Shown piece by piece: positions 508 to 4,907 of a stretch of 48,472 nucleotides of DNA (within the stretch, counting starts at the first letter, position 1; the number at the start of each line of letters is the position of its first letter). A model generated the notes under the pieces. It saw nothing but the letters and a program-made list of their open reading frames with translations, did not search any database and had not been told where the DNA came from. The DNA comes from Methanospirillum sp. GTDB taxonomy: Archaea > Halobacteriota > Methanomicrobia > Methanomicrobiales > Methanospirillaceae. A program made the position numbers and the translations under genes. Location: positions 1-48,472 of the forward strand of contig JAAYEG010000014.1 in NCBI GenBank assembly GCA_012728895.1. Direction: 5' to 3'.

Positions 508-1329
508 CTACGCCGTGATGACGGTCCCGAGCCGTTCGCCCCGCACGGCGGTCGTGATATTGCCGGGCACGTGGCAATTCACGATCCGGAGCTCGCGGAC
601 GTGGACGGCCTCCTGCATCAGCTCGAGGATCTTCGGCTCCATGACCATGTCCTCCAGGTTCATCTCGAGCAGTTCGTCGGCCGAGATCCGGGGGATCAGC
701 TCGGCGTCGGGGTTCGTCACAGGGTCGGCAGTGAAGAGCCCGTCGACGTTCTTGCCAAGGATACAGGTGCGCGCTCCCATCACCTCGGCCATCAGGAACG
801 CCCCCGTGTCGGTCCTGTGCGGCGGGATCGCCCCGATCCGGACCGGGTGTTCGTAGAGTCCGTACGGCGGCGTCCCGTGTATGACCGGTAGCTGGCCGAG
901 CCTCAGCAACGTCGGCAGCTCGAGCAGGTCGGCCTGGTGGATCCGCGTCCCCCCCCACGGCGAGAGGAGGAGAGCGACCATGATGGCATTCTGCTCGGAG
1001 ATCTTGGCCGAGAGCTCGGCGAGCACTCCCGTGGGCATCCCGAGGTCTAGGCCGACATCCATGATGTGCCGGACCCGAGCACCGCCGCCGGTCACGACGA
1101 GGACCTCGTTCTCTTTCGAGAGGTTCCCGATCTCGGTACAGAGTGGGTGCATCACCGAACGGCCGTAGTCGATAACGCCGTGACCTCCGAGCTTGACCAC
1201 GTTCAGATCGGGCGTGATGCGGATCCGCCTGGATTCACCGATCTCCTCGAGGAGACCCCTTCGAACGAGTGTCTCTGAGGCGAGGCCGGACCTCAGTCCG
1301 AAACGTCCCTGTCGCCGGGTCATACGCAT
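508..1329 (-). CDS. Molybdenum storage protein-like amino acid kinase family protein
   Basis: A 273-residue protein of the amino acid/UMP kinase fold. It aligns along its whole length, from memory, with both subunits of the Azotobacter molybdenum/tungsten storage protein (MosA about 276, MosB about 270 residues). Visible signatures: VVKLGGHGVIDYGR near 44-57 (nucleotide loop), TGGGARVRHI near 80-89, GTPPYGLYEHP near 152-162, IPPHRTDTGAFL near 168-179, NVDGLFTADP near 194-203, and VPGNITTAVRGERLGTVIT near the C terminus. In MoSto the hetero-hexamer uses ATP to pack polyoxomolybdate or tungstate clusters. Only one gene is present here, and it mixes alpha-like (IPPHR-TDTGAFL, GLDLGMP) and beta-like (GTPPY, TP-RIS) features. 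Automated pipelines would likely call it uridylate kinase. Methanogens need Mo or W for formylmethanofuran dehydrogenase, so metal storage is plausible but inferred. A second in-frame ATG lies at 1323. Confidence 0.75.
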   Translation of the reverse strand: MRMTRRQGRFGLRSGLASETLVRRGLLEEIGESRRIRITPDLNVVKLGGHGVIDYGRSVMHPLCTEIGNLSKENEVLVVTGGGARVRHIMDVGLDLGMPTGVLAELSAKISEQNAIMVALLLSPWGGTRIHQADLLELPTLLRLGQLPVIHGTPPYGLYEHPVRIGAIPPHRTDTGAFLMAEVMGARTCILGKNVDGLFTADPVTNPDAELIPRISADELLEMNLEDMVMEPKILELMQEAVHVRELRIVNCHVPGNITTAVRGERLGTVITA

Positions 1330-1392
1330 ACTTATATGTAAGCGGAGAAGAATATTGGTTATATCAACTGGTTAATCAGTTGAGTGAGAACC
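1330..1392. promoter_or_regulatory. Divergent promoter with 20-bp palindrome
   Basis: The 63-base gap between the leftward MoSto-like gene and the rightward operon holds a TATA-like GGTTATATCA (1358-1367), readable on the other strand as TGATATAACC. Counting about 26 bases in either direction lands at or near the two start codons (1393 and 1329), so both mRNAs may be leaderless. A second TATA-like CATATAAG sits at 1332-1339 on the minus strand but is too close to the start. A perfect inverted repeat, TCAACTG (1364-1370) and CAGTTGA (1377-1383) with 6-base spacer GTTAAT, overlaps the shared element and looks like a repressor site. Confidence 0.5.
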
Positions 1393-1599
1393 ATGAAGAT
1401 CTTCGTCCGCGAGAGAACAAAGGTGGGTGAAGGCGTCCGCCAGCCCCGCTATGTCGTGCTTGCCGTCCTTGGCGGCGATTTGAGAATCTACGCGCACCAC
1501 TACCGCAAGACAGAGCTCGAGCAGCTCGCCTCCGACTGCGGCGCCGACCTCGTCTACCTCGAGCAGGTATCGGAGCCCGAGCACGGTAAAAAGAAGTAG
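1393..1599 (+). CDS. Small conserved hypothetical protein, first gene of the trm56-tfe operon
   Basis: Codes for 68 residues starting MKIFVRERTK and ending in a lysine-rich tail. The sequence alternates charged and hydrophobic residues (RYVVLAVLGGDLRIYAHHY, then KTELEQLASDCGADLVYLEQV), which suggests a small mixed alpha/beta fold. ATG 1393 was preferred to GTG 1384 because it lies about 30 bases after a TATA-like sequence, as expected for a leaderless archaeal mRNA. No function is recognised. The gene is followed within 21 bases by the next gene and probably leads the operon. Codon use matches its neighbours (strong C/G at third positions), which supports real coding. Confidence 0.75.
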   Translation: MKIFVRERTKVGEGVRQPRYVVLAVLGGDLRIYAHHYRKTELEQLASDCGADLVYLEQVSEPEHGKKK

Positions 1600-1620: not shown

Positions 1621-1980
1621 ATGCCTGCACCGACGCTCGAGTCGGTCATCGATGCCATGATCACGATCGCACTGGTCGATGACCGGGTTCTCGGGCTCGA
1701 GTTCACGCCCGACGGCGTCCTGATCCGCCTGCCGACGACACGGAAGATCGCGGAGCGTCTCGACGTTCCGCATTACTACGTCCTCCCTCTGATCGGCATG
1801 CTCGAGGCTGATGGCCTGGTCACCCGCGCCGAGCGGGTCGGGATCCGGACGACTCCAGCGGGTACCCACCGCCTCTTCGGCCGGATCGAGCAGCACTACG
1901 CCGGTGACGCGGAGTCCCTGCTGGGAACAGAACTCTTCGACCTCGTCCGGAAACGCGCCTGCCAGGGGCTCGGCCCCTGA
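1621..1980 (+). CDS. Putative winged-helix protein
   Basis: About 119 residues. Residues around 38-80 (TTRKIAERLDVPHYYVLPLIGMLEADGLVTRAE, then an RTTPAGTHRLF wing) have the pattern of a winged helix-turn-helix: helix, turn, recognition helix, then a two-strand wing. That suggests DNA binding, but no family is recognised. The N-terminal part (SVIDAMITIALVDDRVLGLEF) resembles a short alpha/beta lead-in. ATG 1621 is taken as the start; an in-frame GTG at 1600 directly abuts the previous stop and would add seven residues. It sits in the middle of the trm56-tfe operon, so a role in transcription or its control is plausible but unproven. Confidence 0.72.
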   Translation: MPAPTLESVIDAMITIALVDDRVLGLEFTPDGVLIRLPTTRKIAERLDVPHYYVLPLIGMLEADGLVTRAERVGIRTTPAGTHRLFGRIEQHYAGDAESLLGTELFDLVRKRACQGLGP

Positions 1981-2297: not shown

Positions 2298-2826
2298 AGT
2301 CGCGGTCCTCAGGCTCGGTCACCGGCCCGAACGTGACCAGCGGGTCACGACCCATGTCGGACTCGTCGCGCGGGCGTTCGGAGCACGCCGCATGCTCCTC
2401 GCGGCGCACGATCCGGGCGTGGTACGTTCCATTCGGGACGTCGTTGCACGCTGGGGCGGCGCGTTCCAGGTCGAGGGGGATGTCGGGTGGCGCAGGTGCC
2501 TGGTGGACTGGAAAGCCGCGGGAGGGACCGTGGTCCACCTCTCGATGTACGGCCTGGATCTCACCGAGGTGATCGATCGGGTGCGCGCCTGCGACCCGGT
2601 CCTGGTCGTGGTCGGGGCGGAGAAGGTCCCTGGCGAGGTCTACGGCCTCGCAGACTACAACGTCGCGGTCACCCACCAGCCCCATTCCGAGATCGCGGGA
2701 CTCGCAGTCTTCCTGGACCGTCTCTTCGAGGGGCGCGAGCTCCTGATTGAATACCCGGACGCGCAGATACATGTCCTTCCATCTGAGCGTGGCAAGGTCG
2801 CCCTGGGACCAGCGGAGGAGGAGTGA
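2287..2826 (+). CDS. trm56: tRNA (cytidine(56)-2'-O)-methyltransferase aTrm56
   Basis: A 179-residue SPOUT-class enzyme that in Archaea 2'-O-methylates C56 in the T-loop of tRNAs using S-adenosylmethionine, stabilising the D-loop/T-loop elbow. The family hallmark is at the N terminus ([20 protein letters not shown]), followed by ARAFGA. The C-terminal half carries the knot region: [20 protein letters not shown], then [17 protein letters not shown] with slight variation (here [10 protein letters not shown]). Length is normal for the family. ATG 2287 begins inside the previous gene, and the stop overlaps the next start by four bases (GTGA), so the gene is translated as part of a coupled operon with tfe. 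Confidence 0.95.
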
Positions 2827-3914
2827 CAATCGACCTGCTCGTGGCCGGGTTCTCGACGCGCCATATCGTTGGATCGGCGCACAACGCCGGTCACCGGGTC
2901 ATCGCGGTCGATCACTTCTGCGACCTCGACCTCGAGGCGTTCGCCGACGCCTGTTACCAGTTCGAGACCCTTCAGGAGCTCGCCTCGATCGCGGACCGGG
3001 TCGCGCGCGAGGAGGTGGTCGACGGGTTCCTCGCAGGCTCCGGGGCCGAGACCCTCACGCTCAAGGCTCCCCTGATCGGCACTCCCCCGGACATCGCATC
3101 CCGGTTTCTCGACAAGGCAGCGACCCAGTCGTTCCTCGAGAAACTCGGCGTGTCCGTCCCCCGCCTCGTCGCCCCCGGTCACTACCCCGCGATGGCGAAA
3201 CCCGTCCAGGGCTCGGGTGGATGGCGGAACCGGATCCTGGCCTCGGACGCTGAGATGGAGCACTTTGTCTGCCAGATGTCCGGCCAGCCATACCTTCTCC
3301 AGGAGATGATCCGGGGCGCGCCGGCATCGGTCTCGTGCCTTACCGACGGCACAGAGGCCGTGGCCGTCGGGACGAACCGTCAGCTTCTCCGGGGCACGGG
3401 CGAGATGGGGTTCGGCTTCGCCGGTTCGGTGACCCCGTGCGACCACCCGCTCGCTGACGAGATGGCCACGATCGCCGAGGAGATCGTAGGGGCGAGCGGG
3501 TGCGTGGGGACGGTCGGGGTCGACTTCGTACTCCCCGACTCACCGGGATCGACGCCGGTCGCGATCGAGGTCAACCCCCGTTTCCAGGGCACGCTCGATA
3601 CCGTCGAGGCGGCGACCGGGATGAACCTGGTCTCGCTCCACCTCGCTGCCTGCGCGGGGCGCCTTCCCCACGAAAGGCCACGCCCCCGGCACTACGCCGC
3701 ACGGCGCATCGTCTTCGCGGACCGGGATCTCGTCGCCGGGTATGGGCTTGCAGCGCGCGGGCAAACGGTCGCCGATATCCCGAGGCCCGGCACGCCCATC
3801 CCGGCGGGATCCGCGGTTGTCTCAGTCCTGGCGAGCGGTTCGAGCTCGGCCGAGGCTCTTGTCATGCTGGATAAGCATATTACCGGCGTGCGTTCATATA
3901 TCGAGCAATGGTAG
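2823..3914 (+). CDS. ATP-grasp domain protein (COG2232-like carboligase)
   Basis: A 363-residue protein starting at GTG 2823. The N terminus is a pre-ATP-grasp Rossmann-like domain ([20 protein letters not shown], then [12 protein letters not shown]). The ATP-grasp core follows: a lysine-containing loop [13 protein letters not shown] near residues 125-137, an [12 protein letters not shown] segment near 160, and the metal-binding strand [14 protein letters not shown] near 246-259. Such enzymes join a carboxylate to an amine or thiol through an acyl phosphate; the substrate here is unknown. It resembles archaeal proteins described as biotin carboxylase-related ligases of unknown role. It lies between trm56 and tfe and overlaps both, which suggests constitutive co-expression. 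It might act in cofactor or tRNA-related chemistry, but that is only context. Confidence 0.85.
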
Positions 3915-4429
3915 CCCTCACCCCGATCCAGGAACAGCCCGCCATCGCCGCGTACCTCCACCGGCTGATCGGCGACGAAGGACTCCTGCTCATCGAGCGG
4001 TTCCCGGACGAGGGGGAGTTCAGTGACGAGGACCTCGCCGAACGGACCGAGATCAACCTGAACTCGGTCCGGCACACCCTCTACACGCTGTACGAACGGC
4101 GCCTCGCCGAGTACAGGCGGATCAAGAACAACGAGACGGGGTGGCTCACGTACCTCTGGCACCTCCGTCTCGACAACGTCCCCGCCGCGCTCGCGGAGGA
4201 GATGGAGGCTGTCCTCGAGAAACTCCGGACCCGCGAACGGTTCGAGGAAGAGAACGACTTCTACCGTTGCGGCCAATGCGGACTCCTCCTGACCTTCAAC
4301 CAGGCGATGGACTCTGACTTCTGCTGCCCCGACTGCGGCGCACCCATGGCCCACTTCGACAACGATATGCTCCTCCTCGCACTCCGTCGTCGGCGCGAGG
4401 CGATCGCCGAGTCGCTCGGGCATGAGTGA
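3908..4429 (+). CDS. tfe: Transcription factor E (TFE alpha)
   Basis: A 173-residue archaeal counterpart of the N-terminal half of eukaryotic TFIIE alpha. It helps TBP/TFB-dependent initiation by stabilising the open complex with RNA polymerase. Residues 1-100 form the extended winged helix (EDLAERTEINLNSVRHTLYTLYERRLAEYRR), followed by a coiled linker (LAEEMEAVLEKLRTRERFEEEN). A zinc ribbon follows with cysteines near 121 and 124 (CGQC) and near 140 and 143 (CPDC); an extra Cys sits at 139. Length and domain order are standard. The start overlaps the ATP-grasp stop by seven bases and its stop overlaps the HD gene by eight. Confidence 0.95.
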   Translation: MVALTPIQEQPAIAAYLHRLIGDEGLLLIERFPDEGEFSDEDLAERTEINLNSVRHTLYTLYERRLAEYRRIKNNETGWLTYLWHLRLDNVPAALAEEMEAVLEKLRTRERFEEENDFYRCGQCGLLLTFNQAMDSDFCCPDCGAPMAHFDNDMLLLALRRRREAIAESLGHE

Positions 4430-4907
4430 AACCGGGGCCCTGCTCCGGGAGGCTGGCTGCGATGAGGGGGTGATCAGGCACTGCCGCGCCGTAACCGCTC
4501 TCGCCCTGGAGCTCGCCAGGGGCAACCCGCTCTACGATCCCGTCCTCCTGGAGACGGGGGGGATGCTCCACGACATCGGCCGTTCGGTGACCCACGGGAT
4601 CGGCCATGCCCAGGCAGGCGCACATCTGCTCTCGGCGCACGGCCTGCCGGAGGCTATTTGCCGCATCGTCGAGACCCACACCGGCGCCGGGCTCACGGCT
4701 GACGAGTGCTCCCTCCTCCGGCTCCTCCCGCGTGATTGCATGCCGCAGAGCCCCGAGGAGCGCCTGGTCGCGTACGCAGACAAGCGACTGAAGGGTGATC
4801 GTGTCGTCTCGATGGAGCGCGAACTCGCGCGGTCGTACGCCCTGCCCCGCAGGGTCCGCCGGCGCTTGTACCGTCTCTGGCGGGAGACCGAGCTCCTCAC
4901 AGGCTGA
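4422..4907 (+). CDS. HD-domain hydrolase (TIGR00295-type)
   Basis: A 161-residue protein with the metal-dependent HD phosphohydrolase fold. His20 lies in the first helix (VIRHCRAVT), HD is at 50-51 (GGMLHDIGRS), further His residues are near 58-62 (THGIGHAQ) and 86 (VETHTGAG), and the final Asp is in VAYADKRLKGD. It matches an archaeal family of small HDIG proteins. The substrate is unknown; phosphate ester or nucleotide hydrolysis is the usual activity of the fold. It is the last gene of the trm56-tfe operon, and its 3' end overlaps by 11 bases the 3' end of the convergent gene downstream. Confidence 0.88.
   Translation: MSETGALLREAGCDEGVIRHCRAVTALALELARGNPLYDPVLLETGGMLHDIGRSVTHGIGHAQAGAHLLSAHGLPEAICRIVETHTGAGLTADECSLLRLLPRDCMPQSPEERLVAYADKRLKGDRVVSMERELARSYALPRRVRRRLYRLWRETELLTG

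Follow-up and report, generated by a model that had tools for sequence, protein, structure and literature searches.

The molybdenum/tungsten storage protein (MoSto) of Azotobacter vinelandii, made from two genes (MosA and MosB; PDB 2OGX, 4F6T), is, as far as we are aware, the one protein known both to assemble polyoxometalate clusters and to store them. The UMP kinase PyrH is of a homohexameric architecture class. A cytoplasmic tungsten/molybdenum (W/Mo) storage role has also been proposed for Tub/Mop (molbindin) proteins, which are small TOBE/Mop-type domains and a different kind of protein. The Tub protein of Eubacterium limosum is one example of a tungstate-molybdate storage protein (PMC11980592). 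According to a 2019 paper, no homologs of MoSto are known (PMC6448029), and in open-access papers we found no description of an archaeal or single-gene MoSto.

Here we analyse a gene in a 48,472-nucleotide stretch of Methanospirillum sp. DNA (hereafter the window, meaning the whole stretch), for which an earlier note had proposed a single-gene MoSto-like protein. The encoded protein resembles A. vinelandii MoSto in fold, sequence (40-45% identity), nucleotide-site lysine, MoSto-specific motifs and Mo/W context. Unlike MoSto, its family is encoded by one gene, lacks the covalent MosA ligands Glu129 and His156, has a companion protein of 68 aa, and is linked to Tup/Wtp/Mod/MOT1 transporter and cofactor genes rather than to nitrogenase. 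The fold is also that of archaeal and bacterial PyrH, but the identity to PyrH is ~23-28%, PyrH profiles score far below their cut-offs and the genome carries a separate PyrH-like gene. With Tub/Mop the likeness lies in the proposed role, and no similarity to these proteins surfaced in the sequence, profile or fold searches run. The features of the locus are:

508..1329, minus strand: single-chain MoSto-like protein of the amino-acid-kinase fold (open reading frame, MosB/MosA PDB sequence matches, AlphaFold2 model, tree)
1330..1392, no strand: divergent intergenic region of 63 bp with a TATA-like stretch (cttatatgtaag) (sequence, partner orientation)
1393..1599, plus strand: conserved basic partner protein of 68 aa (MKIFVRERTKVGEGV...), of no known family (adjacency, co-occurrence)
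1621..1980, plus strand: winged-helix-like (weak GntR) protein of 119 aa (54 of 66 archaeal loci have it close to the MoSto-like gene)

Elsewhere in the window, a minus-strand transposase-like fragment (1-447) with an N-terminal helix-turn-helix (weak HTH_28) lies downstream of the MoSto-like gene at a distance of 60 bp, truncated by the contig end. Positions 2823-3914 encode an ATP-grasp protein, directly followed by a TFIIE-alpha-like transcription factor (3908-4429) and an HD-domain protein (4422-4907), all on the plus strand.

The window protein belongs to the MoSto superfamily

The open reading frame is intact, runs on the minus strand from an ATG at 1329 to a stop at 508 and encodes 273 aa. 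The Pfam AA_kinase model matched with 105 bits, while none of the NCBIfam equivalog profiles scored above its cut-off: the archaeal UMP kinase profile TIGR02076 gave 69.5 bits (cut-off 158), the PyrH profile TIGR02075 50.3 bits (cut-off 243.9) and the isopentenyl phosphate kinase (IPK) profile NF040647 42 bits (cut-off 120). When all PDB sequences were searched with phmmer, the best match was MosB (217 bits, E 2.6e-63), followed by MosA (164 bits, E 3.6e-47) and then an archaeal UMP kinase (53.6 bits, E 2.5e-13). An AlphaFold2 model built from 36 natural homologues reached a pLDDT of 80 and a pTM of 0.80. In a fold search with this model the 15 best PDB matches were all MoSto chains (E 1e-25 to 1e-21, 36-42% identity), and UMP kinases came after them (E 1e-14, 23% identity). 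The protein is thus a member of the MoSto superfamily, nearer to MosA and MosB than to other amino acid kinases in both sequence and fold, and it is homologous to MosA/MosB rather than to UMP kinase. The relationship that the earlier note had drawn from motif matches is supported by PDB matches, identities, fold search and the column counts below. The protein also falls outside PyrH and IPK, its profile scores being below cut-off and its sequence and fold nearer to MoSto; the comparison with IPK was made at the profile level.

The window protein is 45% identical to MosB and 40% to MosA (whose sequence was verified against PDB 2OGX), and MosA and MosB are 46% identical, so that it is about as distant from either subunit as these are from each other. 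Among the 51 columns that are constant in MosA and constant in MosB yet differ between the two, it has the MosA residue at 15, the MosB residue at 14 and neither at 22, and 53 of the 78 columns common to MosA and MosB are kept. By this count the proposal that a single chain carries alpha- and beta-subunit signatures holds literally. The pattern would be that of an outgroup or pre-duplication form lying outside the A/B split, not of a fusion; a fusion of MosA and MosB is ruled out by the length of 273 aa and the single domain.

MoSto motifs are kept but MosA ligands are replaced

The nucleotide-site lysine K46 and the motifs RxRH, QN, PPY and RxD are present in 96-100% of 130 family sequences, in which the charged residues H50, K109, E112, D134 and H253, peculiar to the family, are invariant or nearly so. 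MosA His140, which we take to be a W3 ligand, aligns with leucine in the 130 single-chain members. At the positions of MosA Glu129 and His156 these members have H/K and G instead. In MosA both residues are covalent Mo8 ligands (PMC4504029); for W3 the paper speaks only of ‘three histidine’ atoms. The loop aligned with the ligand-bearing loop of MosA (residues 157-171) has low confidence in the AlphaFold2 model. Lack of the cavity-lining residues, which the earlier note had named as one ground against a MoSto identity, is partly seen here, Glu129, His156 and His140 not being conserved. Because these MosA residues are replaced, the single-chain shell may bind metal in a different way from MosA.

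A small basic protein accompanies the MoSto-like gene

A new finding here is the near-obligate co-occurrence of the 68-aa basic partner with the MoSto-like gene. The partner is encoded nearby in 107 of 114 loci; it is divergent and upstream in 58 of the 65 archaeal loci that have it, and downstream in bacteria. A profile search of 232 genomes of the order found both genes in 151, the MoSto-like gene only in 2, the partner only in 4 and neither in 75 (6 of 232 discordant; Fisher p 3e-53, from counts that ignore phylogeny). One of the two MoSto-like-only genomes has a weak, partial-looking match, and the four partner-only genomes are all at most 84% complete. Among Desulfuromonadia the partner occurs in 31 of 31 genomes with the single-chain type, and one further genome has a weak partial match; the same kind of search found no partner in G720, the Desulfuromonadia genome with true MosAB. 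Tandem MoSto-like copies are accompanied by two partner copies.

Comparison of the partner with Pfam, NCBIfam and the PDB revealed no relative. Its model (pLDDT 79, pTM 0.63) has a predicted beta-beta-alpha-beta fold, for which a fold search returned nothing significant (best E 0.16). The invariant residues K2, R6, R8, H36 and R38 would suit oxyanion binding. From its position and sequence, the region 1330..1392 is likely the shared promoter region of both genes, and the 119-aa winged-helix-like protein, with a Pfam GntR match below cut-off, is likely a regulator of the locus. In the window's genome a frameshifted remnant of a second partner gene (L192; G000:C61, about 22.3 kb) adjoins a gene for a MOT1-family molybdate transporter. 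The partner domain in a long open reading frame at L169, considered as a fusion, proved to be a run-in upstream frame.

The gene neighbourhood points to tungstate and molybdate

We examined 66 distinct archaeal loci, each of at least 9 kb, for transporter genes within 6 kb, counting TupA, WtpA, ModA and MOT1 at strict E-values. A tungstate/molybdate transporter gene lies within this distance in 57 of them, in varying order and orientation (TupA 43, MOT1 43, ModA 14, WtpA 12). TupA is essentially single-copy, with about one per genome, and chance proximity would therefore be of the order of 0.6%. Curated profile cut-offs are passed by the neighbours WtpA, ModA, FdhA and MOT1, whereas TupA, TupB and TupC score well against tungstate-transporter models but below the equivalog cut-offs. 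TupC matches alone were rejected as unreliable transporter evidence, the ATPase in L039 and L042 being MacB-like. The window's own genus does not have the transporter next to the gene: the neighbours in L039 are MacB-like and TupA lies on another contig. A TupA-like domain in the window's genome (L195; G000:C32:12039-12812) sits inside a 642-aa open frame, and genus relatives have it in frames of 644-668 aa, which suggests a fusion to another part.

In some Geobacter the linkage takes the form of an operon. The Geobacter locus L102 has the order tupA-tupB-tupC-moeA-moaC-mogA-mos, with the MoSto-like gene last, and L090 and L142 have parts of this operon. True MosAB loci (L119, L120, L145) show no such transporter, cofactor or partner linkage among their neighbours. 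Gene context in two domains of life thus lends good support to a W/Mo role of the single-chain protein, and the tungstate/molybdate function proposed earlier is supported in archaea and Geobacter alike. The more specific proposal of a store for formylmethanofuran dehydrogenase found no support: the W/Mo enzyme gene linked to these loci is that of formate dehydrogenase alpha (11 loci), and the MoSto-like gene is missing from about a third of Methanomicrobiales genomes. A protein of ~245 aa, weakly similar to the TiaS N-terminal domain and to methanogenesis marker 11, is encoded close to the MoSto-like gene in some 42 loci from archaea and bacteria (for example L161:6928-7656, L099:5224-5970 and L173:2720-3454) and is possibly part of the same system.

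Genomes with nifD carry the MoSto-like gene in 20 of 38 cases and the others in 133 of 194 (p 0.06), with no positive association. As the gene is not commoner in nifD genomes and the window's own genome is without nifD, nitrogenase is not the main customer of the single-chain protein.

Distribution and phylogeny

The window's own genome (95% complete) holds a single copy of the MoSto-like gene, 0.5 kb from a contig end, and single-contig relatives with the same family likewise have one copy only, in agreement with the single-gene nature claimed at the outset. Among the order relatives the gene occurs in 153 of 232 genomes, mostly once and without a MosA/MosB pair; in genus g31 it lies as two tandem copies, each encoding a single-chain protein. 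A phylum-wide sample gave a match in 68 of 393 genomes, and named archaeal relatives include Methanoregula, Methanoculleus and Methanospirillum. Bacterial relatives ~60-66% identical were found in Geobacter, Geomonas, Citrifermentans, Pelobacter, one Anaeromyxobacter MAG and one Acidobacteriaceae MAG. The gene is indeed that of a methanogen, but describing it as such understates the range of a family that is also bacterial. Of the 195 Desulfuromonadia genomes 32 have matches, 31 of them of the single-chain type; the remaining one, G720, instead has an adjacent MosB and MosA pair 85% and 74% identical to those of Azotobacter. MosB-MosA pairs also occur on Azospirillum plasmids.

In the tree, read as unrooted because the UMP kinases are too remote to serve as outgroup (branch 10), a branch with support 100/99 parts MosA, MosB and the acidobacterial L144 protein from the single-chain proteins, and the window protein groups with its own genus. 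One-clade AU tests gave p 0.14-0.34. The L144/L173 protein (G759, of the same phylum as the Acidobacteriaceae MAG) is a lone protein intermediate between the single-chain family and MosB, 49% identical to the window protein and 54% to MosB. Genes for the small partner and the TiaS-like protein lie close by, and the 9 kb read contained no MosA.

Discussion

We propose, with a probability of about 0.58, that the gene encodes a homo-oligomeric ATP-binding protein that handles W/Mo, probably for storage, together with a small partner of its own. The keeping of the metal as oxide clusters, the need for ATP, the oligomeric state and what the partner does are inferred. This one-gene MoSto superfamily member would handle tungstate and/or molybdate in the cytoplasm. 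A UMP-kinase-like, probably hexameric homo-oligomeric shell would bind ATP, take up the oxyanions imported by Tup/Wtp/Mod/MOT1 transporters and act as a W/Mo buffer or store from which formate dehydrogenase and other W/Mo enzymes are supplied. The 68-aa basic protein may act with the shell as an oxyanion carrier, a gate or a supplier of positive cluster ligands, namely those present in MosA but missing from the shell. A wider reading, which we offer tentatively and with some doubt, is that archaea and bacteria share a two-component W/Mo storage or delivery system, in which a homo-oligomeric, ATP-binding MoSto-type shell and an obligate 68-aa basic protein supplying or gating oxyanion clusters would serve W/Mo cofactor enzymes rather than nitrogenase, and which would be the form that gave rise to two-gene MosAB by duplication.

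It is unlikely, though a serious competitor, that the protein and its 68-aa partner process W/Mo without storing it, binding ATP and oxyanion to present or activate the metal for cofactor insertion, or sensing it. Three points speak for this: in Geobacter relatives the gene shares an operon with moeA, moaC and mogA, the MosA cluster ligands are lost, and the near-obligate small partner is missing at MosAB loci. However, RxRH, QN, PPY and IPPxRxD, which are specific to MoSto among proteins of this fold, are kept, and linkage to uptake genes is also what a store would be expected to show.

The remaining explanations are far less probable. A small-molecule kinase from the amino acid kinase family, whether ordinary or novel, acting on UMP, isopentenyl phosphate or another substrate, would share the fold, the catalytic lysine and the weak sub-cut-off matches to the archaeal UMP kinase and IPK profiles; we regard it as very improbable, as a separate UMP kinase-like protein is encoded on contig C42 of the same genome, MoSto is far closer in sequence and fold, and the W/Mo neighbourhood recurs in archaea and bacteria. 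There is even less to be said for the view that the protein is one of two MoSto subunits, with the gene for the other lost at the contig end or located elsewhere. The position near that end beside a transposase-like fragment and the two tandem copies in g31 would fit this view, but single-contig relatives have one copy, a search of the window's own genome found no second one, and both g31 copies are of the single-chain type rather than MosA plus MosB.

If the storage reading is true, polyoxometalate chemistry would move from a nitrogen-fixation curiosity to general W/Mo supply in anaerobes. The wide occurrence of a one-gene form among methanogens and metal-reducing bacteria such as iron reducers makes the origin of two-subunit MoSto testable, and the linkage to uptake genes, together with an undescribed partner, suggests that the rare metals tungsten and molybdenum are handled in a way not yet studied.
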